Below are positions 9,144-53,832 of a stretch of 64,000 nucleotides of DNA, piece after piece. Numbering within the stretch: the stretch's first letter is position 1; the number at the start of each line of letters is the position of its first letter. Below the pieces are notes generated by a model that worked only from the letters and a program-made list of their open reading frames with translations, was not told the DNA's origin and did no database searches. Source of the DNA: Halomonas huangheensis (lineage in GTDB: Bacteria > Pseudomonadota > Gammaproteobacteria > Pseudomonadales > Halomonadaceae); NCBI RefSeq assembly GCF_001431725.1, contig NZ_CP013106.1, forward strand, positions 2,666,001-2,730,000, given 5' to 3'. Position numbers and translations under genes: made by a program.

Positions 9144-9566
9144 ATGAGCTACGATATCGTCCTCAAGCGCGTATATCAGACTATTCAAGAGGATGATGGG
9201 GCACGCGTGTTGGTAGACCGTCTCTGGCCACGCGGCCGGCGTCGTGAAGCCCTGGCGCTGGCCGACTGGTATCGCGATGCGTCCCCCAGCCATACCCTGC
9301 GCCGTCAGTATCACGATGAAGCCATCAGTCGCACTGTTTTCGAGGTGCGCTATCGCGGCGAATTACGTGACCAGCCGCAGAGTCTTATCCCGCTGATGAA
9401 GCAGGCCCGTCAGGGTCGTCTGACGCTGTTGACTGCCACTCGAAGCATTGATGCTTCCCATCTACCCATCCTTCGTGACGCCATTATCGAAGCACTGCAG
9501 CAAGAGGACCAGGCGGATGCCCTGCCCTCATCACCGCCGTGCTATGGGAAGGGGGAGGAGTCGTAA
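9144..9566 (+). CDS. DUF488 family protein
   Basis: 140 residues. The start at 9144 is chosen for a strong AAGGAGG site 6 nt upstream; the frame is open further upstream. The N-terminal motif RVLVDRLWPRG and the basic/acidic pattern that follows are typical of the short DUF488 (YeaO-like) family, whose biochemical function is not established. The gene stands alone between the secretion operon and convergent sthA, and its 3' end runs into a heptad-repeat element. Confidence 0.85.
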   Translation: MSYDIVLKRVYQTIQEDDGARVLVDRLWPRGRRREALALADWYRDASPSHTLRRQYHDEAISRTVFEVRYRGELRDQPQSLIPLMKQARQGRLTLLTATRSIDASHLPILRDAIIEALQQEDQADALPSSPPCYGKGEES

Positions 9567-9708
9567 GCCGTACCGTAAGCAACGAGCATCCGGCTGCGAG
9601 CCGAGAGCTGGCAAGCACCGCATTGCGGCTCACAGGAATCCGAGCCGGAGACGGGGTTATTTCCCTTTTCCCTCTTGAAACTTACAGCTTCTAACTTACC
9701 GCTCGGGT
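9563..9708. repeat. Intergenic heptad element (copy A)
   Basis: Two GTAAGC-type units lie at 9563-9581, partly inside the end of the DUF488 gene. A core of about 90 bp follows, then CTT-phased heptamers CTTGAAA, CTTACAG, CTTCTAA, CTTACCG at 9674-9701. The core contains GAGCTGGCAA and, read on the minus strand, AACCCCGTCTCCGGCTC, both closely matched in other copies in this window. It sits between convergent DUF488 and sthA genes, just past the sthA stop. Confidence 0.7.
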
Positions 9709-9712
9709 TTGG

Positions 9713-11110
9713 TCAGCGCTGAAACACCCGATTCAACCCGTTCTGCGCCGCGACACGATAGGCTTCAGCCATCGTCGGATAGTTGAAGGTCGTGTTGACG
9801 AAGTACTTCAGAGTGTTGGCCGCACCCTCCTGCTGCATGATCGCCTGACCGATGTGCACGATTTCCGAGGCCTGGTCGCCGAAGCAGTGGATACCGTAGA
9901 TTTCCAGGCTCTCCTGGTCGAACAGGATCTTGAGCATGCCAACCGTATCGCCGGTAATCTGCGCCCGCGCGGTGTCCTTGAAGAACGCGTGGCCCACTTC
10001 GTAAGGCACCTGCGCTTCGGTCAACTCTCGTTCGGTACGGCCGAAGGAGCTGATTTCGGGGATGGTATAGATCCCGGTTGGCACTTCGGTAACGTAACGG
10101 AAGTCGCTTTCCAGCAGCTTGTTGCAGGCATTGAGTCCCTGATCGTACGCGGCACTGGCCAAACTCGGCCAACCGATGACGTCGCCTGCAGCAACGATAT
10201 GAGGAATCTCGGTGCGATAGTGTTCATCGACCTGTAATTGCCCACGCCCATTCGCCTTGAGACCGATATTCTCCAGGCCCAGTTCATCGGTATTACCGGT
10301 ACGTCCATTGGCCCACAGGAAAGCATCAGCACGCAGACGCTTGCCTGATTTGAGGTGAACGGTCACACCATTGTCGGTGCCCTCGACACGCTCATATTCC
10401 TCATTGTGACGAATCAACACACCGTGCTTGCGCAGGTGATAGGACAAGGCATCACTGATCTCGTCATCGAGGAATGACAGCAGACTGTCGCGGTTATTGA
10501 TCAAGTCGACCTTGAGCCCCAACCCTGAGAAGATCGAGGCATATTCACAGCCGATAACCCCCGCACCAAAGATGATCAGGGTACGCGGTGAGTGCTGGAG
10601 CCCGAGGATAGTATCAGAGCAGTAAATTCGAGGGTGGCGGAAATCGATGTCCGCCGGTCGGTAGGGACGTGAGCCAGTGGCAATAACGATCTGCTCGGCA
10701 ACCAGTTCGTCCTGCTTGTCAGCACTGCCTCTCACCACCAGAGTATGCTCGTCCTTGAAACGCGCAATCCCCTGATACAGGTCAATGCGATTACGGGCAT
10801 AGAAGTTGGTGCGCATGACGACCTGCTGATCGATGGTCACACGCGAGCGCTCGCGCACCTTGGGAAAGGAAAACCAGCGCGGCTCGCCAATATCACGAAA
10901 CATGCTGTTGGTATTGAACGACATGATCTGGCGCACCTGGTGACGCAGCGCCTTGGAAGGAATCGTACCCCAGTGAGTACAGTTACCACCGACGTGGGAT
11001 TGCTTCTCGATCACTGCGACGCGCTTGCCATGCTTGGCCGCATTGATCGCTGCACTCTCTCCGGCTGGTCCGGTACCGATCACCACCACGTCATAGTTGT
11101 GGACTGCCAT
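9713..11110 (-). CDS. sthA: Soluble pyridine nucleotide transhydrogenase
   Basis: 465 residues, the normal family length. It has an FAD-binding Rossmann motif ([13 protein letters not shown], residues 9-21), an NAD(P)-binding motif ([13 protein letters not shown]) and the second FAD contact ([15 protein letters not shown]). The segment [12 protein letters not shown] keeps only the first cysteine of the usual CxxxxC redox pair, the hallmark separating SthA from dihydrolipoamide dehydrogenase and glutathione reductase. It is a cytosolic flavoprotein reoxidising NADPH with NAD+. Downstream of the nqr operon on the same strand, separated by a hairpin. Confidence 0.97.
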
Positions 11111-11207
11111 TGTCTCTCCTTACTGGGGTACTCGCGAAACCGTGATTCCGACAAATCAGGTCTATGCTTCAGAAAGCCAGCACATGCAATGCCCGCGCTT
11201 CTACGTG

Positions 11208-11231
11208 GACGGCGCCCCTCGGGGCGCCGTC
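11208..11231 (-). terminator. GC-rich hairpin downstream of nqrM
   Basis: A perfect 10-bp stem (GACGGCGCCC with GGGCGCCGTC, loop CTCG) lies about 45 bp past the nqrM stop and upstream of sthA. There is no T-run on the minus side (TATTT on the plus side), so it may be a weak terminator or an mRNA-stabilising hairpin. Confidence 0.5.
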
Positions 11232-11275
11232 TATTTGCCTATGTCGATACTATCGGCTCGATGCCTTCAGCCATC

Positions 11276-11533
11276 TCAACGACGAGTGGCATCGTAGCCG
11301 AGATCGAGTCCGCGGTTCTCATCGCTACGTCGACGTGAACTACCGCTACGCTTGCGGGACTCCTCTTCGCAAACCTCATCCTTCCCGCCGCAGATCTCGC
11401 AACCGTCCTTGAGGCCCAGTTGGTTCAGCCCACCGCAGGAACCGGCAATCGGTTTACGCCCGACAATAACTCCAATTGCCATCGCCGCTACGACCAACAA
11501 CATGGCAACAAGCACGATCAGAAAAATACCCAT
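11276..11533 (-). CDS. nqrM: Na+-NQR maturation protein NqrM
   Basis: 85 residues, a small membrane protein with one N-terminal transmembrane helix (about residues 2-24) followed by GRKPIAGSCGGLNQLG and DGCEICGG. The four cysteines are the signature of NqrM (DUF539), required for assembling the iron centre of Na+-NQR. The ATG at 11533 has GAGGAG 6 nt upstream, so the in-frame TTG two codons earlier is not needed. Last gene of the nqr group, separated from nqrF by 316 bp where other genomes often carry apbE. Confidence 0.93.
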   Translation of the reverse strand: MGIFLIVLVAMLLVVAAMAIGVIVGRKPIAGSCGGLNQLGLKDGCEICGGKDEVCEEESRKRSGSSRRRSDENRGLDLGYDATRR

Positions 11534-11849
11534 CTTCAACTCCTCGCCTACGGTCGGCGTACGGTACTGCCTGTAGGCAGCACTCGTTGATTATCGTCAC
11601 CCTTGACTGATGACCACTACATTCTGTGTGAAGTTCCAGAAGTGGCAGATTGTCATGCTGGGTGTCTTCAAGGTTCACGGGATGTCCGGGAATGGTGATC
11701 ACCCTGCGAGTGGGACGTCTGGCGAGTCTCATCACCGCCGTCATCAACATGCCCTGACACCTCGTTGGACGCCTCCATTATGCCAGAAAATGGTGGATTC
11801 CGATACGCAGAAGCCGGCCCTGAGGCCGGCTTCTGGCAGTGCTTGAGGA
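11534..11849. other. Gene-free spacer between nqrF and nqrM
   Basis: 316 bp. Apart from the hairpin next to nqrF I see no convincing gene. The one longer minus-strand ORF here (11750-11454) shows no ApbE-like motif and overlaps the start of nqrM. The spacer lies where an apbE gene would be expected. Confidence 0.5.
11808..11835 (-). terminator. Hairpin after nqrF
   Basis: A perfect 12-bp stem (CAGAAGCCGGCC with GGCCGGCTTCTG, loop CTGA) starts 14 bp past the nqrF stop. No adjacent T-run on the minus strand. It could terminate or reduce transcription between nqrF and nqrM. Confidence 0.6.
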
Positions 11850-13082
11850 TCAGCCGCCAAAGTCATCCAACAGGATGTTCTCGGGCTCAACCCCCATGTC
11901 ATTCAACATCTTGATCACGGAGGCGTTCATCATCGGCGGCCCACACATGTAGTACTCGCAGTCTTCCGGAGCCGGATGATCCTTGAGGTACATGTCGTAG
12001 AGCACATTGTGGATGAAGCCTGTCGGACCTTCCCAGTTATCTTCCGGTTGTGGATCAGACAGCGCCAGGTGCCAGGTGAAGTTGTCGTGCTCTTCAGCCA
12101 GCTTGTCATACTCTTCGTTGTAGAAGGTCTCACGCCAGGAGCGCGCACCGTACCAGAAGGTCATCTTGCGCGTGCTGTGCAAACGCTTGAGCTGGTCGAA
12201 GATATGACTGCGCATCGGCGCCATACCAGCACCGCCACCGATGAAGACCATTTCGGCATCAGTGTCCTTGGCAAAGAACTCACCAAAGGGACCCATGACC
12301 GTCACCTTGTCGCCTGCCTTCAGGTTGAAGACGTAAGTCGACATCAGGCCAGGCGGATGACTGGAGTTGGGCGGAGGCGTGGCGATACGGATATTGAACT
12401 TGAGAATACCCTTCTCTTCCGGATAGTTGGCCATCGAGTAAGCGCGGATGACCTCTTCGGAATTCTTGTGGGAGATGTTGAACAGGCCAAACTTCTCCCA
12501 GTCGCCGCGGTACTCTTCTTCAACATCAAAATTGGAGAAGTTGACGTCATAGGGCGGAGCAACCAGCTGCACATAACCACCTGCACGGAAAGCGACTTCC
12601 TCGCCTTCCGGCAGCTTGAGGTTAAGCTCCTTGATGAAGGTGGCAACGTTGGGGTTCTCGATGACCTCACATTCCCACTTCTTGACGCCGAAGACCTCCT
12701 CGGGCACCTCAATCTTCATGTCCTGCTTGACCGGAACCTGGCAGGACAGGCGCCAGCCGGACTTCTTCTCGCGCAGGGTGAAGTGTGATTCCTCGGTCGG
12801 CAGGATCGAGCCGCCACCGTCGCTGACGCGGCAGCGACACTGGGCACAGGAGCCACCGCCACCACAGGCGGAAGAAAGAAAGATGCCGTTGGCTGCCAGA
12901 GTGTTGAGCAGCTTGCCGCCGGCTTGAGTAGTCAGGGTATGCTCGGGGTCACCATTGACCTCGATGGTCACGTCGCCAGTACTGACGAGCTTGCTGCGGG
13001 CCGCCAGAATCACCGCCGTCAGACTGATGACGATAACGGTGAACATGATGACGCCGAGCACGATGACTGTTGTATCAACCAT
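11850..13082 (-). CDS. nqrF: Na+-NQR subunit F, NADH dehydrogenase module
   Basis: 410 residues. One N-terminal transmembrane helix (about residues 4-27) precedes a [2Fe-2S] ferredoxin domain with Cys73, Cys79, Cys82 ([10 protein letters not shown]) and Cys114. A ferredoxin-reductase module follows: FAD-binding RAYSMANYP and NADH-binding [13 protein letters not shown] plus YYMCGPP. It oxidises NADH on the cytoplasmic side and passes electrons through FAD and 2Fe-2S into the complex. The C-terminal DDFGG is typical. Sixth gene of the operon, 59 bp after nqrE. Confidence 0.98.
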
Positions 13083-13141
13083 GTCGGTTTCCTATTGCTA
13101 GCGTTTCCGTGTACCCGGCGGCAAAGGCCGCCGGATCGCGC

Positions 13142-13759
<618 letters not shown>

Positions 13760-13760
13760 C

Positions 13761-14429
13761 TTACACGGCCTCCTTGGGCTCGGTGTTGGCCTTCATGACG
13801 AACTCATTGCTCTCGATCTGTTCAGGATTGATCGCGCGCAGCGCCCAGATCAACAGACCGATAATGAAGAACGCCGACGGCGGCAGCAGTAGCAGACCAT
13901 TGGGCACATACCAGCCGCCGTTCTGCACGGTTTCGAGGATGGTGATGCCGAACAGGCTACCGGCACCAAACAGCTCGCGGAAGAAGCCGACAGTCATCAG
14001 GATGAAGCCATAGCCCAGACCATTACCGATGCCATCAAGGAATGACAGTCCCGGAGTATTGGTCATGGCGAAGCCTTCGGCACGGCCCATAACGATACAG
14101 TTGGTGATGATCAGACCAACAAACACCGACAGCTGCTTGGACATGTCATAGGCGAAGGCCTTGAGCAGCTGATCAACCACGATAACCAGCGACGCGATGA
14201 TGGTCATCTGCACGATGATCCGGATCGACGACGGGATATGGTTACGAATCAGCGAGACAAACATGCTGGAGAAGGCCGTGACGAAAATCACCGCTATCGT
14301 CATGACCAGCGAAACGCTGAGGCTACTGGTAACCGCCAGTGCCGAGCAGATACCGAGGATCTGCAGGGCGATGGGGTTGTTCTTGAAGATGGGCGTGACG
14401 ATAACGCCCTTGGGAGTCGGTGCAGACAT
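13761..14429 (-). CDS. nqrD: Na+-NQR subunit D
   Basis: 222 residues, six predicted transmembrane helices, homologous to RnfE. It contains the conserved cysteine segments [10 protein letters not shown] and [17 protein letters not shown], with the latter Cys paired with that of NqrE around the membrane iron centre. Lies 2 bp after nqrC and 1 bp before nqrE. Confidence 0.98.
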
Positions 14430-14431
14430 GA

Positions 14432-15268
14432 TCAGGCTCCTTCGCTTGCGTCGGAAGTGCTGGCAGCTTCATCAGCACTGGCCTGTGGGGCATCAGCACC
14501 TTCCACGCCGCCACGGAAGCGCGCGAGGTAAGGACCGAAGCCTTCCTGTCCCAGCCAGAACTGTACAAGATGGGTCACACCGCGGCTGGTCAGCGTTGCG
14601 CCAGACAGCGCGTCGACTTCGGTCGATTCGCTCGCACCACCCTTGACCAGTGCAATGGACGGTTCCATGGCGTCGGCAGATGCATAGACCTCCTTGCCTT
14701 CCCACTGGGCCTTCCAGCGCGGGTTATCGACTTCGCCACCCAGACCTGGTGTCTCGGAATGGGAGAAGAAGGTAATACCACTGATGGTATTGCCATCGCC
14801 TTGAATCGACAGATAACCACGCATCAGTCCCCAAAGACCCTGACCGCGAATCGGCAGGATGATCTGCTCAGGACTATCGGTATCACCGACCAGGTAGACC
14901 GTGGCGTACTTTTCCTGACGATTGATGCCCGCGATATCGCGTTCACCGGACAGTGTGCGCGACTGAGCCGGATCCTGAGAAGCTTCATAGCCATCGAAGG
15001 TCTCCGGGTCCACGGAATCCGTGTACTCACCGGTTTCCAGGTCCACTACACGCGGCGTAACAGCACGAGAGAACTCATCCTGTACGCTCATGCCCTGCTC
15101 ATAGAGGTCCGCCACCGCCAGGATATTGGTCTTGCGGTCCAGCTCCTGGTTGAGCTCCTGCTTGGAACGCAGGGCAACGGCAGCAGTCGAGACGATGATC
15201 GAACACACCAGGCATAGTGCGAATGCAACCGTCAGGATCTTCTTGATGGAGTTGTTGCCTTGTGCCAT
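14432..15268 (-). CDS. nqrC: Na+-NQR subunit C, covalent FMN subunit
   Basis: 278 residues. One N-terminal transmembrane helix (about residues 12-32) and a periplasmic FMN-binding domain. The flavinylation motif LSGATLTS puts the acceptor threonine at residue 225, the position known in Vibrio. FMN attachment needs an ApbE flavin transferase, which is not encoded in this operon. An Ala/Ser/Glu-rich C-terminal tail of about 25 residues looks variable. The start overlaps the nqrB stop by 1 bp. Confidence 0.98.
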
Positions 15269-16494
15269 CAGTCGCTCTCCTTGGCCACCACGGCGGTGCG
15301 CTTGGCACGACGCTTGATGTTGGCCTCAACAAAGAAGTGGTCGATGAGAGGCGCAAACAGGTTGGCGAACAGGATCGCCAGCATGATGCCCTCGGGGAAA
15401 GCCGGGTTGACCACGCGGATCAATACCGTCATCACACCAATGAGAGCGCCAAAGATGTACCGGCCTGGATTGGTCATGGATGCCGATACCGGATCCGTGG
15501 CCATGAACACCATACCGAAGGCGAAACCGCCCAACACGAAGTGCCAGTACCAGGGCATGGCAAACATCGGGTTGGAATCGGAACCTACAAGATTGAAGAT
15601 CGCGCTCATCGCCACCATACCGAGGAATACCCCCAGCACGATGCGCCAGCTGGCGATCCCCATACCAATCAATACCACCGCACCAATCAGAATCGCCAAT
15701 GTCGACGTCTCACCGACAGAACCGGGGATGAAGCCGAGGAATGCATCCCACCAGCTGTACTGATCCTGAAGTGCCGCCATACCGCTGGTGTAAGCGGTAG
15801 AAAGTGGCGTCGCACCAGTAAAGCCATCCGCGGCAACCCAGACCGAATCACCAGAGATCTGCGCCGGATAGGCAAAGTACAGGAAGGCACGACCGGTCAG
15901 CGCCGGGTTGAGGAAGTTCTTGCCGGTACCGCCGAAGATTTCCTTGCCGATCACCACACCGAAGGTGATACCCAACGCCACCTGCCACAACGGGATGGTG
16001 GTTGGAAGAATCAGCGCAAACAGCACCGAGGTGACGAAGAAACCTTCGTTGACCTCGTGGCCACGCTTGATGGCAAACAGTACTTCCCAGAAACCACCGA
16101 CGACAAAGGTCACCAGGTAGATGGGAATAAAGTAGGTGGCACCCAGCACAAAGTTGGACCACAAACTGCCAGCCTCATGGCCACCGGCCAGGGTCAGCAG
16201 GATCATCTCGCGCCAGCCGCCCATGCTCTCGAAACCACCGGCAATGGCGGCATTGGCCTGCCAGCCGGCATTCCACATACCGAAGAGCATGGCCGGGAAC
16301 GTGCAGAACCACACCGTGATCATGATGCGTTTGAGATCGATACCATCACGCACGTGAGCAGTGGTCTTGGTCACACTCGGCGGTGCGTAGAAGATGGTGT
16401 CGACCGCTTCATACAGCGGGTAGAACTTCTCGTATTTGCCGCCCTTGTGGAAGTGCGGCTCGAGATTATCGAGTGTCTGTCGAATACCCATCAT
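15268..16494 (-). CDS. nqrB: Na+-NQR subunit B, covalent FMN/riboflavin subunit
   Basis: 408 residues with about ten predicted membrane helices; forms the main Na+ pathway. The covalent FMN motif reads DGFTGATPL with the acceptor Thr at residue 229, so the first motif residue is Thr rather than the usual Ser. The N-terminal cytoplasmic stretch and the [18 protein letters not shown] segment are typical. 1-bp overlaps with both nqrA and nqrC support tight co-translation. Confidence 0.98.
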
Positions 16495-17843: not shown

Positions 17844-17975
17844 AGTCTCGCCCAGTTGATGGATCGTTGAATGATGGACAGGGGTTCGATGGAAATGAGA
17901 GGAATTCTTGTTATCTTGATCGCATTGCCTATCACGCCGAGGCGAGCTCGAACCACCCCCGAAAAAATCCTCCGT

Positions 17976-18004
17976 ATTATAAAGAGAAGGCACCGGATTG
18001 ACTA
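17976..18004 (-). promoter_or_regulatory. Probable sigma-70 promoter of the nqr operon
   Basis: On the minus strand a perfect TATAAT (17981-17976) is spaced 17 bp from TAGTCA (18004-17999), a 4/6 match to the -35 consensus. It lies between the gap2 terminator and nqrA, predicting a start near 17969. Confidence 0.5.
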
Positions 18005-18060
18005 CATGATCGAACGTCGCAACGACGATCAGATCGGTAAAATATGTGCCAAAAACACAT

Positions 18061-18094
18061 AAAAAACCCCTTGCAGATCAATATCTGCAAGGGG
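18061..18094 (-). terminator. Rho-independent terminator of gap2
   Basis: A perfect 12-bp stem (CCCCTTGCAGAT with ATCTGCAAGGGG, loop CAAT) is followed on the minus strand by six T and then a second T-rich stretch. It starts 45 bp past the gap2 stop and insulates the nqr promoter. One of the clearest terminators in the window. Confidence 0.93.
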
Positions 18095-18138
18095 TATGCA
18101 CGATCGAAAAAACCCGCTAGCGAGCGTTTTCCAGCGCT

Positions 18139-19599: not shown

Positions 19600-19635
19600 G
19601 GGGGACCTCTATGTAGGGGGCAGGAAAACGTTCGT

Positions 19636-19664: not shown

Positions 19665-19763
19665 TCGCTGTATGGTCGCATTCCCTGTAGGCGCATTACA
19701 GAAATAGCTATTTGACTACATGACGGAAATGAGGCTGGTATGATGAAGGGCAATGTAAACGGC

Positions 19764-19875
19764 AAGCTGTAAGCTGCTAGTCAAAAGCTGTAAGCAACCC
19801 CGTTCCCCGGCTTCTGATCCAGCCAACCCGTGGCTCGCCGCCCGAGGCTTATAGCTTATAGCTCAAGACTTACGA
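19764..19875. repeat. Intergenic heptad element (copy B)
   Basis: Five AAG-phased heptamers (AAGCTGT, AAGCTGC, TAGTCAA, AAGCTGT, AAGCAAC; 19764-19798) are followed by a core of about 49 bp and four CTT-phased heptamers (CTTATAG twice, CTCAAGA, CTTACGA; 19848-19875). The core holds AACCCCGTTCCCCGGCTT, nearly the same as the minus strand of copy A. It occupies most of the 319-bp divergent spacer between gap2 and mfd; the rest holds the gap2 promoter and nothing else I recognise. Confidence 0.72.
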
Positions 19876-19918
19876 TTTATGGCAGTGCCTGTCACCCACC
19901 GACATCGACAAGACTCGC

Positions 19919-24617: not shown

Positions 24618-24673
24618 GGCGAGAAGCTGCGGGCAACGAACGACGAGCTGGCAAAAGCTGGGGTCCAGGCGAG

Positions 24674-24757
24674 CTTACCACTTACCTCTTGCTTCTTACC
24701 CCTTACCTCTCGCCTCTTATTTCTTACCTCTCGCCTCTTACTTCTTACCCCTCCCTA
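24674..24757. repeat. CTT-phased heptad array (copy C, right half)
   Basis: Twelve consecutive 7-bp units, all beginning CTT or CTC (for example CTTACCA, CTTACCT, CTTGCTT, CTCGCCT, CTTATTT). The preceding 50 bp contain GCAACGA and GAGCTGGCAA, both found in the core of copy A, so this seems a variant of the same element. It lies between convergent L,D-transpeptidase and lpp genes. Confidence 0.8.
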
Positions 24758-24782
24758 CCTACAGCTCGAGCGCAGCGTGCCC

Positions 24783-24824
24783 GCAGCCCGTAGCCCGTAG
24801 CCCGTAGCCCGTAGCCCGTAGCCC
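24783..24824. repeat. GTAGCCC heptad array
   Basis: One GCAGCCC and five exact GTAGCCC units in a row, ending 7 bp before the lpp terminator stem. Same 7-bp period as the neighbouring CTT array but a different unit. Confidence 0.9.
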
Positions 24825-24826
24825 GA

Positions 24827-24864
24827 AAACGACAGAGGCCCCACCTTTCGGCGGGGCCTCTGTC
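24827..24864 (-). terminator. Rho-independent terminator of lpp
   Basis: A perfect 12-bp stem (GACAGAGGCCCC with GGGGCCTCTGTC) and, on the minus strand, a trailing TTTT. Begins 36 bp past the lpp stop. Confidence 0.88.
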
Positions 24865-29500: not shown

Positions 29501-29517
29501 CGGTCCACTGCTGTGGC

Positions 29518-45709: not shown

Positions 45710-45765
45710 TTACCTCCTTCAGGACACCGAAGCCTGGCATCGATCCATATCTCGACAGGGACAGC

Positions 45766-45882
45766 ATGAGTTACCAGCAAACCTCCCCCTTCAGCAAACT
45801 GAGTGCAGCATTCTGCTCAGTCTCGAAAGCGACGCTCCAGCACCAGCGCATCATCGCCTGCGTCCAGGCAGCTCGCGCGTGA
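45766..45882 (+). CDS. Small 38-residue ORF coupled to the DedA-PAP2 gene
   Basis: The ATG at 45766 has an AGGGA site 5 nt upstream; 38 codons follow (starts MSYQQTSPFSKLSAAF). Its TGA overlaps the GTG start of the next gene in a GTGA arrangement, whereas that GTG has no good RBS of its own. The product has no membrane segment and two cysteines. Either a leader ORF that delivers ribosomes to the downstream gene or a small protein. No homology can be claimed. Confidence 0.45.
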   Translation: MSYQQTSPFSKLSAAFCSVSKATLQHQRIIACVQAARA

Positions 45883-47282
45883 ACCTTGAGCACTGGCTGC
45901 TGCAATTAACGCCATCTCCCAGCATGCTGCTGCTGTTGGTCATGTTGATCGCGCTGACAGAGTCACTGGCACTGGTAGGCGTGTTGATCCCCGGAGTGGT
46001 GTTGATCACTGCGGCGGCATCACTGGCCGGACACCAGGAACTCAGCGCCTACTGGGTCATGCTGGCGGCGTTCATCGGCGCAGTGATCGGCGACGGCCTC
46101 AGTTATGGTCTTGGTTACCGCCACCGTGATCAGGTCACGTCCATGTGGCCTCTGTCACGCCATCCGGAATGGCTGGAACGCGGCACGCGGTTCTTCCAAC
46201 GTCACGGCACCCTGTCGGTGTTGCTGGGACGCTTCGTCGGTCCCGTCAGGCCTATCGTTCCGCTGATCGCTGGCATCATGCGCATGCCTCCTACAACCTT
46301 CCTGTGGGCCAATATCGGTTCGGCGTTACTGTGGGCCCCTGCTTATGTCCTACCTGGCTACCTGCTGGGCCGCACCTGGCAGCAATGGCTAACGGTGCCA
46401 AACGAGCTGAACCCATGGTTGACAGCACTGGGCGTAACGATAGTGATCCTGGCCATACTATTTTCGCTGGTAAGGCACCACGCCTACCCCGATGGCCTGC
46501 TGTACCGTAGCCTCGCGTGGCTGACCGGGCACTTGCCCCACGGTCAACGGTTGTGGCACGCATTGGCACCACAGCATGAAGATGAACCGCCGCTGGCCAG
46601 TTGGCTGCTGCTGCTGTCATCACTCACGGCACTATGCGCCTGGACTCTGGTGGTACTGCATGCCGATGGCCCGCTGACAATCGACGCTCAGCTCAATCAG
46701 CTGATCGGTACGCTGAGCCTGCCGATCCTGGCTGGCTGGTCTCAGGTAATGGCAAAGGCGGGTGATACTCTGGGCGTGTTGGCGCTGATCGCTCCCTGGC
46801 TGATCTGGCTACTCAGCAAACGTCACTATGCAGCGCTTGGCCATGTACTCGGTGGCCTACTCGGCATCGCTGTGCTCAACACCCTGGGCAAGGAGGTCAT
46901 CGGGCGGGCACGACCCGATGTGCCGGATTACCTTGCCCACTCGCTGTCCTACCCCAGCGCTCACACCTCAACAGCGGTGGTGTTGTATGGCATGGCAGCA
47001 ACCTTTATTGCCCAGTCGATGCCGCGCTCCCAGCGCTTCTGGCCTTACTGGATCGCTATTGTGATTGTGGTACCCATGGCGCTATCACGACTGACACTTG
47101 GTGTGCACTGGCTCAGTGATTTGATCGGTGGCGCCCTGCTCGGGCTAGTGGTCTGCTCGATGATCAATCTCGCCTGGTTACGTCAACCACGGCGACAACT
47201 GGCACCCTGCCCACTGACACTACTGGTGATCTGTTCACTGGCACTGCTGAGCGCTCGGCTCTTGTGGCTTCCCCCCATCTAG
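45879..47282 (+). CDS. DedA-family / PAP2-phosphatase fusion membrane protein
   Basis: 467 residues. Residues 1-210 form a DedA (SNARE-associated) domain with GAVIGDGLSYGLGYR and GRFVGPVRPIVPLIAG. Residues 240-460 form a PAP2 lipid phosphatase with all three catalytic motifs: KEVIGRARP, YPSAHTS and SRLTLGVHWLSD. DedA proteins are flippases for lipid carriers such as undecaprenyl phosphate, and PAP2 enzymes dephosphorylate C55-PP, so the fusion may couple dephosphorylation to recycling. The start is GTG 45879, apparently coupled to the small ORF upstream. Confidence 0.92.
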   Translation: MNLEHWLLQLTPSPSMLLLLVMLIALTESLALVGVLIPGVVLITAAASLAGHQELSAYWVMLAAFIGAVIGDGLSYGLGYRHRDQVTSMWPLSRHPEWLERGTRFFQRHGTLSVLLGRFVGPVRPIVPLIAGIMRMPPTTFLWANIGSALLWAPAYVLPGYLLGRTWQQWLTVPNELNPWLTALGVTIVILAILFSLVRHHAYPDGLLYRSLAWLTGHLPHGQRLWHALAPQHEDEPPLASWLLLLSSLTALCAWTLVVLHADGPLTIDAQLNQLIGTLSLPILAGWSQVMAKAGDTLGVLALIAPWLIWLLSKRHYAALGHVLGGLLGIAVLNTLGKEVIGRARPDVPDYLAHSLSYPSAHTSTAVVLYGMAATFIAQSMPRSQRFWPYWIAIVIVVPMALSRLTLGVHWLSDLIGGALLGLVVCSMINLAWLRQPRRQLAPCPLTLLVICSLALLSARLLWLPPI

Positions 47283-47345
47283 ACAGAAGTTACCGGGAGT
47301 AAAGGCGCGATCAAGAGACAGTGGCAGGAAGAGCAAGTGGGCTGG

Positions 47346-47394
47346 TTCAGTGCACAGCTCAGTTCAGTTCAGTGCACAGCTCAGCTCAGCTCAG
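47346..47394. repeat. TTCAG/CTCAG pentamer-based tandem repeat
   Basis: A 17-bp unit TTCAGTGCACAGCTCAG occurs twice (47346-47362, 47368-47384), separated and followed by TTCAG or CTCAG pentamers. It lies between convergent DedA-PAP2 and lysE-family genes. Unlike most other junction repeats here, the period is 5. Confidence 0.85.
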
Positions 47395-47416
47395 TTCAAA
47401 GGTCTCAATCCCAGCA

Positions 47417-48040
47417 TCAGCCCAGCGCCAGCCAGACACCAACACCGATCATCAATGTGCCGGCAATACGATTGAGCAAGCGAACATTTCCTCCCTTGCC
47501 CAGCAGGTGACGCAGGCTCTTGCCCCCTGTGGCGTAGAGCAGTAGGCAGCAGAATTCGAGGGTCAGAATAATCGCAATCAGGCCAAGCAACTGGCTCACG
47601 ACCGGTCGGCCGGCATCGATGAACGGTGGCAATAGCGCAACAAAGAATGCCCAGCCCTTGGGATTGGCAACCGCGGTGACGAACCCCTGCAGTGCCAGCT
47701 CACGACGACTGGCCGGCGCTGTATCGACGACTTCCTCAGGGATCGCCATTCGGCCACGGGAGCGCCACATCATCACCCCCAGATAGAGCAGATAGGCCCC
47801 TCCCGCCCACTTGAAGAGTTCGAACAGCGCCGGCTGTTTGAGCATCAGTGCGGCCACTCCGGCGCCAGCCGCGAAGGCCACCAACCCTACGCCGAAAAGC
47901 TCACCAAACATCATCCACAGCGCCCGCTTCACGCCCTGAGTCATGCCCAGCACCATGGCCAATGTCATGCACATGCCCGGCGTCAATGACACAAGAAAGA
48001 AGGTCGGAACAAATACCGAAAGTACCGACAGCGACGGCAT
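47417..48040 (-). CDS. LysE/RhtB family amino-acid exporter
   Basis: 207 residues, six predicted membrane helices. Starts MPSLSVLSVFVPTFFLVSLT; the motif PGMCMTLAMVLGMTQGVKRA is the family signature and VANPKGWAFFVALLPPF the second conserved block. Substrate cannot be predicted. ATG 48040 has AAGGA upstream; the in-frame TTG one codon earlier is unlikely. Confidence 0.92.
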   Translation of the reverse strand: MPSLSVLSVFVPTFFLVSLTPGMCMTLAMVLGMTQGVKRALWMMFGELFGVGLVAFAAGAGVAALMLKQPALFELFKWAGGAYLLYLGVMMWRSRGRMAIPEEVVDTAPASRRELALQGFVTAVANPKGWAFFVALLPPFIDAGRPVVSQLLGLIAIILTLEFCCLLLYATGGKSLRHLLGKGGNVRLLNRIAGTLMIGVGVWLALG

Positions 48041-48076
48041 CAAAGGTCCTTACCCGGAAGGCCGGGAATCTATCTT

Positions 48077-48703
48077 TCAGGGGAGGGGCTGATCGCCCCA
48101 GCGAGGCACCAGACGTTGCTCGATACCCAACTGGTTGAGTATGCGCGCGACGATGAAGTCGACCAGTTGATCGATGCTGGTCGGGCGATGATAGAAGCCG
48201 GGAGCTGCAGGCATCACCACCACTCCCATCTGCGTCAGCTTGAGCATGTGCTCGAGATGAATCGCGGATAAAGGCGTCTCGCGCGGCACCAGCACCAGAG
48301 TACGGCGCTCCTTGAGGGCGACATCGGCAGCGCGTTCAATGAGGTTGTTACTCGCGCCGCAGGCCACTGCCGACAGTGTCCCTGTGGAACAGGGACAGAT
48401 CACCATCGCCGTACTGGCTCCAGAGCCCGAAGCGACCGGCGCCATCCAGTCCTCACGGCCGAAGCAACGAATCTGACCCGGTGCCGCCGCGAAGCGCTGG
48501 CTCAGCACCTCGGCCTGACGCTCCGGGCGCGGTGGTAACTCATCATCGGTTTCCGTGGCGATGACCAGCAGCGCCGCCTTCGAGACCATCACCCACACCT
48601 CGTGATTGGCCTGCACCAGCGCCTCGATCAAGCGCAGTCCATACTGCGCCCCCGAGGCTCCGGTAATCGCCACCGTCACCGGCGGATTGAATGCCTCAGC
48701 CAT
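48077..48703 (-). CDS. ubiX: Flavin prenyltransferase
   Basis: 208 residues from ATG 48703, preceded by GGAGGAG 4 nt upstream and overlapping the mpl stop by 8 bp. TGASGAQYGLRLIEAL binds FMN; CPCSTGTLSAVA and PRETPLSAIHLEHML are diagnostic. Makes the prenylated FMN cofactor for UbiD decarboxylase in ubiquinone synthesis. Coupled to mpl, a common arrangement. Confidence 0.97.
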   Translation of the reverse strand: MAEAFNPPVTVAITGASGAQYGLRLIEALVQANHEVWVMVSKAALLVIATETDDELPPRPERQAEVLSQRFAAAPGQIRCFGREDWMAPVASGSGASTAMVICPCSTGTLSAVACGASNNLIERAADVALKERRTLVLVPRETPLSAIHLEHMLKLTQMGVVVMPAAPGFYHRPTSIDQLVDFIVARILNQLGIEQRLVPRWGDQPLP

Positions 48704-50078
48704 GCTTCTCCTCCAGCGCCGACAGCAACAGCTCGTGGATACCGCCGAAGCCACCGTTGGACATCACCACGATCCGGTCCTCGGGGCGAGCCTCGGCAAC
48801 GATGTCCGCTACCAACGTGTCGATCGTGCCAAGGCAGCGTGCCGGAACTGGTGACGTGGCCACCACGCCATCCAATGACCAGTCCATGCCTTCGGGCTGG
48901 TACCACCAGACCGCATCGGCGTTCTCGACACTGGCCGCCAGCCGCTCTCGCAACGTGCCCAACCGCATGGTGTTCGAACGCGGCTCTATCACTGCCAGCA
49001 GGCGCCCCGGTCGTGATGACCCGCTCAGTCCACCGAGCGTCGCAGCGATAGCCGTTGGATGGTGAGCAAAATCATCAATCACCTGAATTCCAGCCACCTC
49101 GCCACGCACTTCCTGACGGCGGCGCGGTGTTTCGAAACGTGATAGCGCCTCGGCTCCGTTATCCAGCGAGATGCCGTAAAAGTGAGCCACCGCCAACGCC
49201 GCCAGGGCATTGCGGGCATTGTAGTCACCGCTCAACGACCAATCGATGACAACCTGCTCTTCACGGCCATCACCGTCGCGGTGAGCTACCCGGAAACGAC
49301 TGGCATCGTCACGCTCCAGCTCGAGTCGCCAGCACCCCTTATCCGAACTACCGAAGTGCTCAACGGGCGTCCAGACTCCCTGTTCCAACACTCGCTCGAG
49401 TGCCGGTTCATCCGCAGCCACCAACAGGCGCCCGCGACTGGGCACGGTACGCACCAGGTGATGAAACTGCCGTTCAATCGCGGCGAGATCCGGGAAGATG
49501 TCGGCATGATCAAACTCGAGATTGCCCAGCACCGCGACTTCAGGTCGGTAATGCACGAACTTGGAACGCTTGTCGAAGAACGCCGTGTCATATTCATCAG
49601 CCTCGACGACAAAAGGCCCGTCAACTTCACCCAGCCGCGCAGAAATCCCGAAATTACGCGGCACGCCACCAATCAGGAATCCGGGCTTCAGACCGGCACT
49701 TTCCAGCAGCCAGGCGCACATGCTGGCGGTAGTGGTCTTGCCATGGGTGCCGGCAACTGCCACGACACGCCTCCCCGGCAAGACATGCTCTGCCAACCAT
49801 TGAGCTCCGGAGATATACGGCAGTCCAGCATCGAGAATCGCTTCGACTTCGGGATTGCCCCGCGACAGCGCATTACCGATGATGACCTGATCCGGGCGAG
49901 GTCGTAGATTATCAGCGGCATAGCCGCTCATCAGCTTGATCCCCGCCTGCTGCAACTGGGTGCTCATGGGTGGGTAGACATTGGCGTCGGAGCCGGTCAC
50001 CTCGTATCCCAGCTCGCGCGCCAGCAGTGCCAGACTGCCCATGAAGGTGCCACAGATTCCGACAATATGAAGATGCAT
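48696..50078 (-). CDS. mpl: UDP-MurNAc:L-alanyl-gamma-D-glutamyl-meso-DAP ligase
   Basis: 460 residues from ATG 50078 (MHLHIVGICGTFMGSLA) with GGAGG upstream. ATP-binding GTHGKTTTASM, the Mur-ligase core LGNLEFDHADIF and DDFAHHPTAI are present. The peptidoglycan-recycling ligase reattaches murein tripeptide to UDP-MurNAc. Confidence 0.97.
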   Translation of the reverse strand: MHLHIVGICGTFMGSLALLARELGYEVTGSDANVYPPMSTQLQQAGIKLMSGYAADNLRPRPDQVIIGNALSRGNPEVEAILDAGLPYISGAQWLAEHVLPGRRVVAVAGTHGKTTTASMCAWLLESAGLKPGFLIGGVPRNFGISARLGEVDGPFVVEADEYDTAFFDKRSKFVHYRPEVAVLGNLEFDHADIFPDLAAIERQFHHLVRTVPSRGRLLVAADEPALERVLEQGVWTPVEHFGSSDKGCWRLELERDDASRFRVAHRDGDGREEQVVIDWSLSGDYNARNALAALAVAHFYGISLDNGAEALSRFETPRRRQEVRGEVAGIQVIDDFAHHPTAIAATLGGLSGSSRPGRLLAVIEPRSNTMRLGTLRERLAASVENADAVWWYQPEGMDWSLDGVVATSPVPARCLGTIDTLVADIVAEARPEDRIVVMSNGGFGGIHELLLSALEEKHG

Positions 50079-50352
50079 GGCGCCTCCAATACGCTCAACC
50101 AGCCATTGCGGGGACAACGCCGCCCCGCGGGAATCCATTGCCGGGGCACTCTCCGACCCGCCCCCAGCAAAGCAGCGAGACTAGCACGCTCCCCCGTCTG
50201 CCTCCAGCGACGACCTACGACGCCGCCTCCCGACAGATGCAGCGCCCAGGTTGATGGGCTATTATCGGCGACCCACCCGAGTCAATTTTCGATGGTGTCG
50301 AGCGTCAAGGATGCACCGCACCCACCACCAGGATCAGGAGCCCTCAAGCCCC

Positions 50353-51612
50353 ATGGCCAAGCACAACGCTTTCTATGCACAGTCAGGCGGCGTTACTGCC
50401 GTAATCAACGCCAGCGCCTGCGGCGTCATCGAAGCCTGCCGCCGCCATAGCGACTCCATCGGTAAGGTCTACGCCGGTCACAATGGAATCATCGGCGCCC
50501 TGACGGAAGATCTGATCGACGTCAGCCAGGAAAGTGACGAAAGCATTGCCGCCCTTCGCCACACGCCCGGAGGTGCCTTTGGCTCCTGCCGCTACAAGCT
50601 GAAGGACATCGAGAGCCATCGCGTGCAGTACGAGCGGCTGATCGAAGTCTTCAAGGCTCACGACATCCGCTACTTCTTCTACAACGGCGGCGGCGACAGT
50701 GCCGACACCTGCCTCAAGGTCTCCCAGCTGTCGGAGAAAATGGGCTATCCGCTGACCGCCATTCATGTACCGAAGACCGTCGACAACGACCTACCGATCA
50801 CCGACAACAGCCCGGGTTTCGGCAGCGTGGCCAAGTATATCGCCACCTCCACCCTCGAGGCTTCGCTCGATATCGCCTCGATGTGCGCCACCTCGACCAA
50901 GGTGTTCGTTCTCGAAGTCATGGGCCGTCATGCTGGCTGGATCGCGGCTGCAGGTGGCCTTGCCGGTCAGGGTGAAGGCGAGCCGCCACACCTGGTGATC
51001 TTCCCGGAAGTGGCCTTCGATCGTCGCAAGGTCATGGAGCGCGTCGAGTACGCCGTCAAGAACTACGGCTACTGCGTGATCGTGGTCTCCGAAGGAGCGC
51101 GTTACGAGGACGGTACCTTCCTCGCCGACTCCGGCAACACCGACGCCTTCGGCCATCGCCAGTTGGGCGGTGTAGCACCAACACTGGCCGGAATGGTCAA
51201 GCAGGATCTCGGCTACAAGTACCACTGGGCCGTCGCCGACTATCTGCAACGGGCAGCTCGCCACCTCGCCTCCAGAACCGATGTTGAACAAGCCTATGCG
51301 GTTGGCGAGAGAGCTGTGGAACTGGCTGTCGCCGGTGAGAACTCACGCATGCCAGCGATCAAACGCGTCAGCGACAATCCCTATCGCTGGGAAATCGAGT
51401 CGGCGCCACTGGCAGAAGTCGCCAACCGTGAGAAGTTCATGCCGCCCGATTACATCAGCGAGGATGGTTTCAGCATTACCGATGCCTGTCGTGCCTATCT
51501 GTCGCCATTGATCCAGGGCGAAGACTTCCCGCCGTTCGAGAACGGCCTGCCGAAGGTGGCTCATCTCAAGCTGGCTCGTGTCGAGAAGCGTCTACCGGAA
51601 TTCACCATCTAA
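50353..51612 (+). CDS. PPi-dependent 6-phosphofructokinase
   Basis: 419 residues from ATG 50353 (MAKHNAFYAQSGGVTAVINAS). In the phosphoryl-donor loop NGGGDSADT carries Asp where ATP enzymes have Gly, and PKTVDNDLP has the Lys typical of PPi-dependent enzymes; MGRHAGWIAAAGGLA binds the sugar phosphate. PPi rather than ATP is therefore the expected donor, making the step reversible. Stands alone; ppa lies 4 kb downstream. The 274-bp upstream spacer shows no other gene. Confidence 0.93.
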   Translation: MAKHNAFYAQSGGVTAVINASACGVIEACRRHSDSIGKVYAGHNGIIGALTEDLIDVSQESDESIAALRHTPGGAFGSCRYKLKDIESHRVQYERLIEVFKAHDIRYFFYNGGGDSADTCLKVSQLSEKMGYPLTAIHVPKTVDNDLPITDNSPGFGSVAKYIATSTLEASLDIASMCATSTKVFVLEVMGRHAGWIAAAGGLAGQGEGEPPHLVIFPEVAFDRRKVMERVEYAVKNYGYCVIVVSEGARYEDGTFLADSGNTDAFGHRQLGGVAPTLAGMVKQDLGYKYHWAVADYLQRAARHLASRTDVEQAYAVGERAVELAVAGENSRMPAIKRVSDNPYRWEIESAPLAEVANREKFMPPDYISEDGFSITDACRAYLSPLIQGEDFPPFENGLPKVAHLKLARVEKRLPEFTI

Positions 51613-51630
51613 ACCGACGCGCTACTCTCG

Positions 51631-51674
51631 ACCTGCACCACCACAGACCTGCACCACCACAGACCTGCACCAAC
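51631..51674. repeat. 16-bp tandem repeat
   Basis: The unit ACCTGCACCACCACAG is present twice exactly (51631-51646, 51647-51662), then a partial third copy to 51674, directly before the terminator stem between convergent genes. Confidence 0.9.
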
Positions 51675-51675
51675 T

Positions 51676-51703
51676 TTGCTCCGCCTGCCGCCAGGCGGAG
51701 CAA
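51676..51703. terminator. Bidirectional terminator hairpin
   Basis: A perfect 12-bp stem (TTGCTCCGCCTG with CAGGCGGAGCAA, loop CCGC) between the convergent phosphofructokinase and DMT transporter genes. T-runs are weak on both sides. Confidence 0.7.
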
Positions 51704-51716
51704 TGTCCTTCCCGCG

Positions 51717-52643
51717 TCAGCCGCGCGACACCGCTACAATCCCTCCCAGCAACAGCACGCCCCCGACTATGAAGCTACCGCTCAGCGGCTCATCCAGCAG
51801 CACAGCACCGAATATCACGCCGAAGATAGGCGACAGGAAGGAAAACACTCCCAACTGCGACGCCCAGTAACGACGCAACAACGCAAACCACAGCAACAAC
51901 GCCGCGCAGGAGATCACCAGCGTCTGAAAGACCAGACTGGTAACGGCGACTCCACTGAACTGCATGCTGCCGAGATCTCCCGTGAACAGCACCACCGGGA
52001 GCAACAACGCCCCCGCGGTAAGCAATTGATAGCCCTGAGTCTGCAAGGGCGGCGCTTCCGACAGCGAAGTGCGACGCAACACCAGTGTCGTTGCCGCCCA
52101 GCTCAAACCTGCCAATAGGCCCAGCGCATCGCCCACCAGCATCGAGCCCGCATTGATACCAGTCCCACCCGGCGCCATGGCCGTCACCAACCCCACAAAC
52201 GCCAACGCCATTCCCCACCATTGGCGCTTCGACAATTGCTCTCCCGGCACCAGAAGATGCAGCCCCAGCGCCGCAAACACCGGAGCCGTATAGAGAAAGA
52301 CCGACATATGCGAAGCGGTGGTGTAGTTGAGCCCCAGAGCGACAAATACGAACTCAAGAGTGAACCCCAGCCCAACCAGAATCCCCGGCCCCAGCCCCGC
52401 CATGAAATCACGCCAGGTGACCCCACGCAGAGCAGCCAACCCAAGTACCAACAACGCAGCCAGACTCGAGCGCAAGGCGATCTGAGTCAGCGGTGCGATG
52501 TCTGCCGCTGCCGATTTGATTGCCACTTGTTGCAGCCCCAGCGCCAGGCAGAACACCAGCATGGCGCCGCTGGCGGACAAGTCCATGGAACGGCGCATCG
52601 GCGCAATAGCCACCGGCGTCGACGAAGCGGAAGAACAGGACAT
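51717..52643 (-). CDS. DMT (EamA) family transporter
   Basis: 308 residues from ATG 52643, which has AAGGAG 7 nt upstream. Ten predicted membrane helices in two EamA repeats (first from about residue 18, second from about residue 160). Substrate unknown; relatives export amino acids or metabolites. Divergent from a LysR regulator, a common arrangement for a regulator and its target. Confidence 0.9.
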   Translation of the reverse strand: MSCSSASSTPVAIAPMRRSMDLSASGAMLVFCLALGLQQVAIKSAAADIAPLTQIALRSSLAALLVLGLAALRGVTWRDFMAGLGPGILVGLGFTLEFVFVALGLNYTTASHMSVFLYTAPVFAALGLHLLVPGEQLSKRQWWGMALAFVGLVTAMAPGGTGINAGSMLVGDALGLLAGLSWAATTLVLRRTSLSEAPPLQTQGYQLLTAGALLLPVVLFTGDLGSMQFSGVAVTSLVFQTLVISCAALLLWFALLRRYWASQLGVFSFLSPIFGVIFGAVLLDEPLSGSFIVGGVLLLGGIVAVSRG

Positions 52644-52683
52644 GAATCGTCTCCTTGGTGAACCATGTGGCAGAGTTGAGCAT

Positions 52684-52694
52684 TTGCAACGCAA
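52684..52694. promoter_or_regulatory. Possible LysR-regulator operator
   Basis: The inverted repeat TTGC-AAC-GCAA sits in the 99-bp divergent spacer between the DMT transporter and LysR genes. LysR proteins bind T-N11-A dyads; this is a short candidate only. Confidence 0.3.
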
Positions 52695-52742
52695 TAGTCC
52701 AAACGATTATCCTGGTGCCCCAGGCTCAGGAAAACTCAACTC

Positions 52743-53687
52743 ATGAAGATCGAGCGTCTGCCCCTGAATGGCCTCCGCGCGTTTGCCGAAGCGGCTCGTG
52801 AAGGCAGTTTCAAACTGGCTGCAGAGCGTCTTGGCGTCACACCAGGTGCAGTCAGTCGACAGATCAAGCAGCTTGAGGAAAACCTGGGTGTAGCGCTGTT
52901 CGAGCGTCATGCCAACGGCGTACGAACCAGCGCTGCTGGACGGCGTCTCGCTGAGGATGTCGACGCCGGACTGGCGCGCATCGCTGCCGGTATGGATGCG
53001 ATCACCCAGCTCACGCCGGGCACCACGCGACTACTGCTCAGTGCGCCGCCCTCCCTCGCCCAGTTATGGCTGCTGCCACGCCTCACTGATTTCGAGGCCC
53101 AACACCGCCAACTGGAAATATCGATTGATGCGAGCCAGGGGTTCAGCGAACCCAGTTGGTACGAGAGCGATGCTCGCCTTGCACTGAGCTACGGCCGCCC
53201 ACCCCGACCTGGCGTAAGAAACCTGCCGCTGTTCGAAGACATGCTGGTCCCGGTGTGCTCACCGGCATTACTCAAGCAAAGCCCGATCCAGCATCCTCGG
53301 GACTTGTTGGGACACACACTGTTCGATGTCAGCTGGTCAACGCCAAGGCGAGATGGATTCCCCGGCTGGAAGGATTGGTTTGCCAAAGCGGGCATGCCCG
53401 AGCAGCAGTTACCGACCTTGCGTCGCTACTCACTTTACGGCCTGGCGCTGGATCAGGCCATCGCAGGACGCGGGGTGATCCTCGCCAGCTTACCGGTTGT
53501 CGCGGATCGCCTGGCCAGCGGCGTACTGACCCGCCCCTTCGGTGATGAACTCATGATTCCCTCACCGTTCCGCTATGAACTGGTTATACCCGACACAGGC
53601 GTGCCGCCGAGGGGTATCAAAGAGTTCATGGACTGGCTACTCGAGGAAGCCCAGCGATTTCGCGAAATCACACCTGGAATGTCGTAA
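52743..53687 (+). CDS. LysR-family transcriptional regulator (GcvA-like)
   Basis: 314 residues. The N-terminal winged helix-turn-helix (LNGLRAFAEAAREGSFKLAAERLG, then VSRQIKQLEENLG) belongs to the LysR class with the GcvA/AmpR-type opening. A periplasmic-binding-protein-like effector domain fills the rest. It probably controls the divergent DMT gene; inducer unknown. Confidence 0.93.
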   Translation: MKIERLPLNGLRAFAEAAREGSFKLAAERLGVTPGAVSRQIKQLEENLGVALFERHANGVRTSAAGRRLAEDVDAGLARIAAGMDAITQLTPGTTRLLLSAPPSLAQLWLLPRLTDFEAQHRQLEISIDASQGFSEPSWYESDARLALSYGRPPRPGVRNLPLFEDMLVPVCSPALLKQSPIQHPRDLLGHTLFDVSWSTPRRDGFPGWKDWFAKAGMPEQQLPTLRRYSLYGLALDQAIAGRGVILASLPVVADRLASGVLTRPFGDELMIPSPFRYELVIPDTGVPPRGIKEFMDWLLEEAQRFREITPGMS

Positions 53688-53690
53688 ACA

Positions 53691-53832
53691 AGAGTTAAGA
53701 GTTAAGAGTTAAGAGTTAAGAAACATGACACCTCTCCTCATCCTGTAAAGGGAGGTGTCTACAAAATCGGGGGCATAGCACCTCTTCCCTCTTCCCTCTT
53801 CCCTCTTCCCTCTTCCCTCTTCCCTCTTCCCT
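53691..53832. repeat. Intergenic heptad element (copy D)
   Basis: Four exact AGAGTTA heptamers (AAG phase, 53691-53718) begin 4 bp after the LysR stop. A core of about 65 bp with an internal hairpin follows, then seven exact CTTCCCT heptamers (53784-53832). AAG-type left and CTT-type right, as in copies A and B. Located between convergent genes. Confidence 0.85.
53727..53759. terminator. Hairpin inside heptad element D
   Basis: GACACCTC pairs with GAGGTGTC across a 17-nt loop. It lies 40 bp past the LysR stop and 90 bp past the stop of the convergent kinase-like gene; no T-run, so weak as a terminator. Confidence 0.4.

Follow-up and report, generated by a model that had tools for sequence, protein, structure and literature searches.

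The 64,000-nucleotide window analysed here (contig NZ_CP013106.1, positions 2,666,001 to 2,730,000 of the forward strand) belongs to Halomonas huangheensis, whose genome (G000) is one contig of 4,757,486 bp. It carries five intergenic arrays of 7-bp units, all located at or very near the places given for them by the initial annotation, and the window gene model puts three of them in convergent settings, as had been proposed, one in a tandem and one in a divergent setting. The arrays had been described as holding AAG (or CTT on the other strand) in a fixed 7-bp phase; the period of 7 was confirmed, AAG alone was not, and the conserved phase is RAG (AAG or GAG). The arrays belong to a family of dispersed elements which, on the leading strand, consist of arm A (RAGNNNN units, ending AAGNAA(A/C)CCC), a core, and arm B (NNNNCTY units). 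The elements lie at gene 3' ends, often abutting the stop codon, and copies of their asymmetric core (AAGTAACCCCG ... GCGCTnGACAGCTCG) are scattered through the genome in an orientation that follows replication.

The first array (8929..8984, plus strand) is one-armed, with about eight units (AAGAAGT/AAGATGT) directly after the stop codon of an HlyD-type gene that ends at 8924. The second is a two-armed element (9563..9712, minus strand, with arm A on the minus strand, here the leading strand) that takes up the space from the stop codon of a DUF488 gene (plus) to that of a pyridine nucleotide-disulphide oxidoreductase gene (minus), which we take to be sthA. Its arm A (9656..9704, minus strand) reads GAGCGGT AAGTTAG AAGCTGT AAGTTTC AAGAGGG AAAAGGG AAATAAC, then CCCCG. 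The arm B side (9563..9618, plus strand) is made of degenerate RAG units (GCAACGAGCATCCGGCTGCGAGCCGAGAGCTGGCAAGC) that fall under the array score cut-off, and it agrees with a match at G000:2675593-2675618 to a motif from the arm B side of the core (B-core motif). The third, a two-armed element (19757..19878, plus strand), occupies the divergent gap, with its arm A (AAGCTGT AAGCAAC|CCCCG) on the plus strand, which is the lagging strand here. The fourth element (24624..24767, minus strand) has a minus-strand arm at 24670-24767, scored as 14 units; its B side, on the plus strand, is degenerate (GCAACGAACGACGAGCTGGCAAAAGC). Adjoining it is another heptamer array (24779..24825; (GGGCTAC)6.7 on the minus strand, GTAGCCC on the plus), which the initial annotation had missed together with the replication polarity; a terminator-like hairpin lies directly past it at about 24832-24863. 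The fifth has a left arm (53690..53731, plus strand) of (AAGAGTT)4 and two more units, adjoining a LysR-type gene whose stop codon is at 53685-53687, and, on the minus strand, a right arm (53780..53835) of (AAGAGGG)7 that is separated by 13 bp from the stop of a PP2C/kinase gene. The latter gene (53849-55633) combines a protein kinase domain and a weak PP2C-like match (below the cut-off) in one frame.

The layout of AAG units left and CTT units right was borne out for the elements at 9563-9712, 19757-19878 and 53690-53835. A shared core had also been proposed, and this held for two pairs of copies. The elements at 9563-9712 and 19757-19878 have a core word in common (AACCCCGTCTCCGGCT on the minus strand at about 9643-9659, AACCCCGTTCCCCGGCT from 19796), and GCAACGA..GAGCTGGCAA occurs both at 9579-9614 and at 24633-24654. 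It did not hold for 53690-53835, whose 'core' (53732..53781, minus strand) is the truncated end of an insertion sequence (IS).

Array abundance was measured in 60 evenly spaced 20-kb stretches of the genome plus the window (61 stretches, 1.264 Mb), which contained 770 intergenic regions (179,736 bases including 20-base margins, about 180 kb). Arrays were called with a RAG-only profile (RAGNNNN units, score at least 16); a refined seven-position profile was dropped in its favour, having drifted to purine-rich sequence. We found 47 RAG-phased intergenic arrays, whereas ten dinucleotide shuffles of the intergenic DNA gave 3.2 on average and never more than 5, which excludes chance. All 24 imperfect arrays found by a lag-7 detector in the 60 stretches were, in our reading, (RAGNNNN)n on one strand. 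Run at periods from 4 to 13, the profile returned 63 intergenic arrays at period 7 compared to 9-23 at the nine other periods; the same test on coding DNA returned 41 at period 7 and 22-132 at the others. Twelve neighbouring intergenic array pairs lay at most 250 bp apart, 11 in the order RAG(+) then CTY(-), none in the reverse order and one with both arrays on the same strand, such that all opposite-strand neighbours (11/11) face inwards, across an inter-arm gap of 1-60 bp.

Among gaps of 40-1000 bp, arrays were present in 13/122 convergent, 18/452 tandem and 6/152 divergent gaps. Their density was 0.95 per kb in convergent gaps, about fourfold higher than in tandem (0.25) or divergent (0.19) gaps. 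By outer edge, 28 of 49 arrays face a gene 3' end and 21 a 5' end; a stop codon lay at most 15 bp away or was overlapped in 24 of the 28, whereas only one of the 21 arms facing a 5' end came within 15 bp of it. The sampled genome thus supports the proposal that the element is dispersed, has an inverted layout and a core, and is enriched at convergent junctions; array frequencies at shuffle level, no junction enrichment and no core homology had been named as outcomes that would speak against it, and none of these was found. A plasmid search with the window element returned no match.

The replication polarity became apparent from the core. By GC skew, replication starts close to coordinate 0 and ends at about 2.27 Mb. 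Searching the whole genome for the arm-A motif (AAGNNNNAAGTAACCCCG, at most one mismatch) gave 29 places compared to 4 for the reversed control. One place on the leading strand (3623372) was dropped, as it lies inside a 273-codon reading frame, and another (1130719) was kept for its plain arm although it overlaps the upstream part of a called gene, leaving 28. Twenty-six of these are on the leading strand (right replichore, 13/13 plus; left replichore, 13/15 minus). The B-core motif was on the leading strand at 12/12 places (7/7 plus, 5/5 minus) and added six loci, bringing the union to 32/34 (two-sided sign test about 7e-8 by our own arithmetic; the loci are not all independent, 3262247 and 3265769 being near copies 3.5 kb apart). 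The exceptions are the window copy at 19785 and a copy at 2835667; the local skew is normal for the replichore at both, so an inversion is not the obvious cause. An alignment of 21 of the 28 arm-A places, chosen by eye, with window positions 9540-9690 (22 sequences, mean column identity 35%) had the consensus AAGTAACCCCGA-CCC-G...CTGTG..CC.TG..GCGGCGCTGGACAGCTCG..GCTCG..GCTCG.

Gene direction was tallied for 27 of the 29 arm-A places, the two overlapping a called gene being excluded. Copies co-directional with their genes were leading in 9/9 cases and convergent copies in 11/11 (10 of these 11 are certain, as one, L190, has no called downstream gene), and copies antisense to both flanking genes were leading in 5/6. 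As antisense and convergent copies are mostly leading too, the direction of neighbouring genes does not explain the polarity. Nor does base skew, since the strand that carries the C-rich motif is the G-rich one. The copies are spread along the whole way between origin and terminus and, by eye, do not obviously become more frequent towards the terminus.

The composite motif RAGN4AAGN4AAGNAAMCCC was searched for in 33 of 36 congeners, three less complete ones being excluded, and occurred in 22/33, with no match in the other 11. Outside this set it was found in 10/292 genomes drawn evenly from the order, with 1-2 matches each; the draw includes one congener, which had no match. H. huangheensis itself has 14 matches, and all 13 among the matches listed are on the leading strand. 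Three congeners displayed the same polarity, judged against termini roughly estimated from 20 skew values each: G004 (16/18 leading; 13/15 after collapsing a 133-bp tandem cluster), G026 (7/8) and G024 (27/33, terminus set at 2.2 Mb). Within G024, copies with AAGC or AAGG words were leading in 25/27 cases, and one G024 family, which overlaps the 33, in 10/10. Copies of this family, nearly complete to the eye, show a stop codon (several copies), GCGCCCTTCGGGC, CAGCTAC AAGCTAC AAGGAGC AAGCTAC AAGGAAA CCCC and a short middle, in this order, and most of the ten have (CTTGCAG)n after it. Words change between species while the RAG phase and the AAGNAAMCCC junction persist, and copy number varies widely between congeners. 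Pure heptamer runs of at least 28 bp in the four genomes carried RAG on the lagging strand in 23 cases and on the leading strand in 8 (one ambiguous, one without RAG). Pure AAGCNGC runs agree, being lagging in 4/4 arrays of G004 and in 13 or 14 of 14, according to where exactly the terminus lies, among the matches listed for G024 (100 of 155).

The junction downstream of sthA was compared between the window and 79 relatives (80 were fetched; one, L103, ends before the junction). Because the lag-7 detector overlooks the degenerate element at 9563-9712, this comparison was redone with the RAG profile. No comparable array was found within 200 bases around the stop codon at the orthologous junction in any of the 79; two reached a score of 14, both at 15.8 and about as many as expected from shuffles, compared to 27.5 for the window. 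In the window, 465 codons of the sthA-like gene precede the stop, compared to 463 in 67 of the 79 relatives, 464 in 10, 465 in one and 466 in one. Several relatives carry, by eye, hairpin terminators where the window carries the element. The element likely replaces the terminator of the genes that it joins, as a side effect. On the 5' side of sthA, two Halomonas species have a (CTTACGG)n array in the same position, with seven units in L092 (9909-9980) and four in L093 (9930-9980), a whole-unit change between species. Two Vreelandella relatives (L113, L119) have a different hairpin repeat, GTGGGAGGCCGCTT..AGCTGAAGCTCCCTCCCAC, directly after sthA at the same 3' junction.

IS elements or their ends were found inside heptamer arrays in two species, namely at window 53732-53781, at L087 16300-17560, at L231 about 14090-15336 (the same place as in L281) and in L278. 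The window fragment is identical at 50/50 bases to the left end of the L087 element, whose second open reading frame has rve and HTH_21 domains and which, from its organisation, we assume to be of the IS3 family; the L278 pair of reading frames resembles the L087 pair by eye. Both exact copies of this left end in the sampled own genome adjoin the edge of a heptamer arm, which suggests that this IS prefers heptamer arms as a target. Elsewhere in the window, a 21/42-bp tandem repeat, CTCTTCCTCAGCCCCGGTAGA, lies at 56466-56573 within a minus-strand gene (56433-57674 or longer).

Two enzyme families were searched for as candidate spreaders, Y1 transposases and reverse transcriptases. Y1_Tnp (PF01797) had no match in G000, while 17/34 genomes searched have one (the control in this search rang in 5/14 genomes), and none in the array-rich congeners G017, G018, G021, G023, G024 and G026; array-bearing congeners with a match include G004, G013, G019, G027, G030 and G035. 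RVT_1 (PF00078) was likewise without a match in G000, with 17/34 genomes searched having one and a single match in each of G017, G021, G024 and G026. The initial annotation had considered a repetitive extragenic palindromic (REP)-like element. As the own genome has neither enzyme, the element is not of the REP/RAYT type; nor was a conserved folding palindrome found. A derivative of a retroelement (group II intron, retron or diversity-generating retroelement) was rejected on the missing RVT_1. Separately, contig C1 of congener G007 contained 19 RVT_1 matches, many of equal score, mostly on the plus strand before 2.1 Mb and on the minus strand after 2.4 Mb, which look like mobile introns with a replication-strand bias of their own.

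We propose, with the chances about even, that these short elements are non-coding and non-autonomous and that both their dispersal and their growth are linked to lagging-strand synthesis, during which copies would spread and arm B would lengthen in 7-bp steps. The lagging-strand template reads 5'-armA-core-armB-3', and the polymerase would therefore meet arm B first; a stall at the core could let it fall back one unit, and the slipped strand would re-pair on the 3-nt RAG/CTY anchor. Annealing of strands at the fork would preserve the orientation of new copies. In favour of the proposal count the array enrichment, the inward order of the arms, their abutment on stop codons, the polarity in this genome and three relatives irrespective of gene direction in the own genome, the excess of RAG on the lagging strand in pure runs, the differing unit numbers of L092 and L093, the lack of both enzymes in the own genome and the want of a comparable array at the sthA 3' junction of the 79 relatives.

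Several observations weigh against this proposal. Slippage by itself leaves unexplained why RAG, but not the N4, persists across species. Pooled over all arms, the ratio was 30 leading to 19 lagging, with genes at 627 : 497; this weak polarity, near the gene ratio, is accounted for by the two arms of each element opposing one another, and it is the asymmetric core that shows the polarity. In the own genome alone, pure heptamer runs were split 9 lagging to 7 leading. Within G024, copies with AAGT words were 2 leading and 4 lagging, and another motif was leading at only 13/18 places. No conserved RNA fold of the core was found in the 22-sequence alignment (consensus energy -0.09 kcal/mol, 3 pairs), and hairpins were not enriched beside own-genome arms, where inner-side stems scoring at least 18 occurred in 6/49 arms compared to 14% of 638 in random intergenic DNA. 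The version in which a hairpin stalls the polymerase is therefore weakened in the own genome, and the stalling step is left there without an obvious cause.

Among the alternatives, a miniature inverted-repeat transposable element (MITE) or REP-like element, driven into the single-stranded lagging-strand template by a transposase of another kind or since lost, would account for the near-identical dispersed copies and their fixed orientation. Most G024 copies shown have small hairpins (GCCC-TTC-GGGC) at the outer end, copy number is widely variable among congeners, and several array-bearing congeners have a Y1_Tnp match. We nevertheless consider this rather unlikely, given that neither Y1_Tnp nor RVT_1 was found in the own genome, nor Y1_Tnp in six array-rich congeners, and that the outer ends are not fixed, arm words and length being variable. 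By eye, the arms are inverted only in the RAG/CTY phase. Polarity in four genomes, and a RAG phase and AAGNAAMCCC junction kept while words change, are also what a selected polar signal would produce, in which a putative protein binds RAG phases and core and acts with the polarity of replication, be it in chromosome translocation, in repair or in fork pausing, and leading-strand copies are retained by selection. Such a signal is improbable, however, as the inward arms make RAG itself symmetric, copies do not obviously rise towards the terminus and a third of the congeners (11/33) have no composite match.

A bidirectional transcription terminator or 3' untranslated region element of convergent genes, with the polarity as a by-product, fits the 3'-end position, the convergent enrichment and the hairpin terminators that several relatives have, by eye, in the element's place at the sthA junction. 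Terminator-type cores (AAAACCCC..GGGGTTTT) were seen in several G004 copies, one G026 copy and a few own copies, and stems scoring at least 20 followed the composite motif in 3/4 cases in G004, 1/1 in G026, 3/15 in G000 and 4/18 in G024. An intrinsic terminator (GC hairpin and U-tract) was, however, not found in each copy, own-genome hairpins were not enriched beside arms, the consensus fold energy was near zero and fold z-scores of window copies were -1.11, -1.91, -4.84 (with the IS hairpin) and 0.99 (other strand -1.20, -1.41); no Rfam match reached the gathering score in the window. The idea that the core is a terminator in every copy has its appeal in G004 and G026, but was rejected on the failed hairpin test in the own genome; the elements may nonetheless serve in termination, as the initial annotation suggested, in view of their 3'-end position and the terminator-like hairpin cores of some relatives. 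The polarity at symmetric convergent junctions is also left unexplained, and we hold this alternative to be unlikely. Neutral microsatellites, arising by 7-bp slippage of any sequence and tolerated only between genes, match the variation in unit number and the over-representation of heptamers in bacteria noted in PMC4692102. They are very improbable all the same, as a conserved RAG phase, 11/11 inward order, a dispersed core and replication polarity are not expected of them and the polarity of non-repetitive core motifs contradicts them.

KOPS, Chi and AIMS are polar octamers scattered over the chromosome and oriented with the leading strand. The Halomonas element shares this orientation, but is a longer intergenic element with facing arms. 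Tandem repeats in Escherichia coli, such as cloned CTG/CAG, grow according to which strand serves as the lagging template; in contrast to these cloned trinucleotides, the Halomonas elements are a natural heptamer family.

In the titles and abstract openings of the open-licence literature, we found no description of RAG-phased Halomonas heptamers or of a replication-polarised heptamer family. The claim that nothing of the kind had been described held to that extent, but not for intergenic heptamers in inward-facing pairs, which the consulted part of PMC4692102 reports from Xanthomonas. That part treats GGGAATC of Xanthomonas and GGGGA(C/T)T of Nostoc as heptameric intergenic repeats, the former with 183-186 arrays per genome, about 90% of them intergenic, 70-75 facing pairs, partly degenerate units and a position close to the 5' neighbouring open reading frame. 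Its authors report no leading/lagging preference and mention an earlier hypothesis by which the abundance of heptamers goes back to the stretch of DNA that the polymerase holds. The Halomonas arrays are alike in period, intergenic position and inward-facing pairs, and their arms lie near stop codons. Unlike the quadruplex-forming GGGNATC, for which four units are preferred, their units are RAGNNNN and lack the GGGNATC or four-G-tract pattern; they have a dispersed asymmetric core, which the part consulted does not describe for Xanthomonas; and 32/34 core loci are leading (pooled arms, 30 : 19). The Xanthomonas GGGAATC family is the nearest published case found, and the Halomonas family is set apart from it by unit, core and, above all, polarity. 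The TAACTGA direct repeats of Beggiatoaceae, as far as the excerpt of PMC4679880 goes, are likewise intergenic heptamers (169 sets in one genome), but they consist of a single invariable word, mostly lie directly before start codons and include only one indirect repeat. Like REP/BIME/REPIN elements, the subject of PMC2817692 and PMC3116915, the Halomonas elements are short, dispersed, intergenic and inverted; they differ from REP/BIME/REPIN-RAYT systems in the missing Y1 transposase of the own genome, in that no conserved palindrome was found, and in their strong replication polarity.

Our boldest suggestion, which we offer tentatively and think more doubtful than the link to lagging-strand synthesis itself, is that these are genus-level selfish repeats without a transposase or reverse transcriptase, copied and placed by the replication fork, with single strands that carry heptamer arms annealing to other gene ends bearing heptamers on the lagging-strand template. 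The RAG phase would be kept as the re-pairing anchor for 7-nt polymerase steps, the words drifting while phase, facing arms and orientation persist. The over-representation of heptamers among bacterial tandem repeats lacks an explanation, and a many-copy family with replication-tied orientation, changing words and a kept phase allows a direct test of whether replication produces them. Should the fork itself do the spreading, repeats could disperse with no mobile-element enzyme involved. In practical terms, the elements rewrite the 3' ends of genes, stop codons and terminators included.

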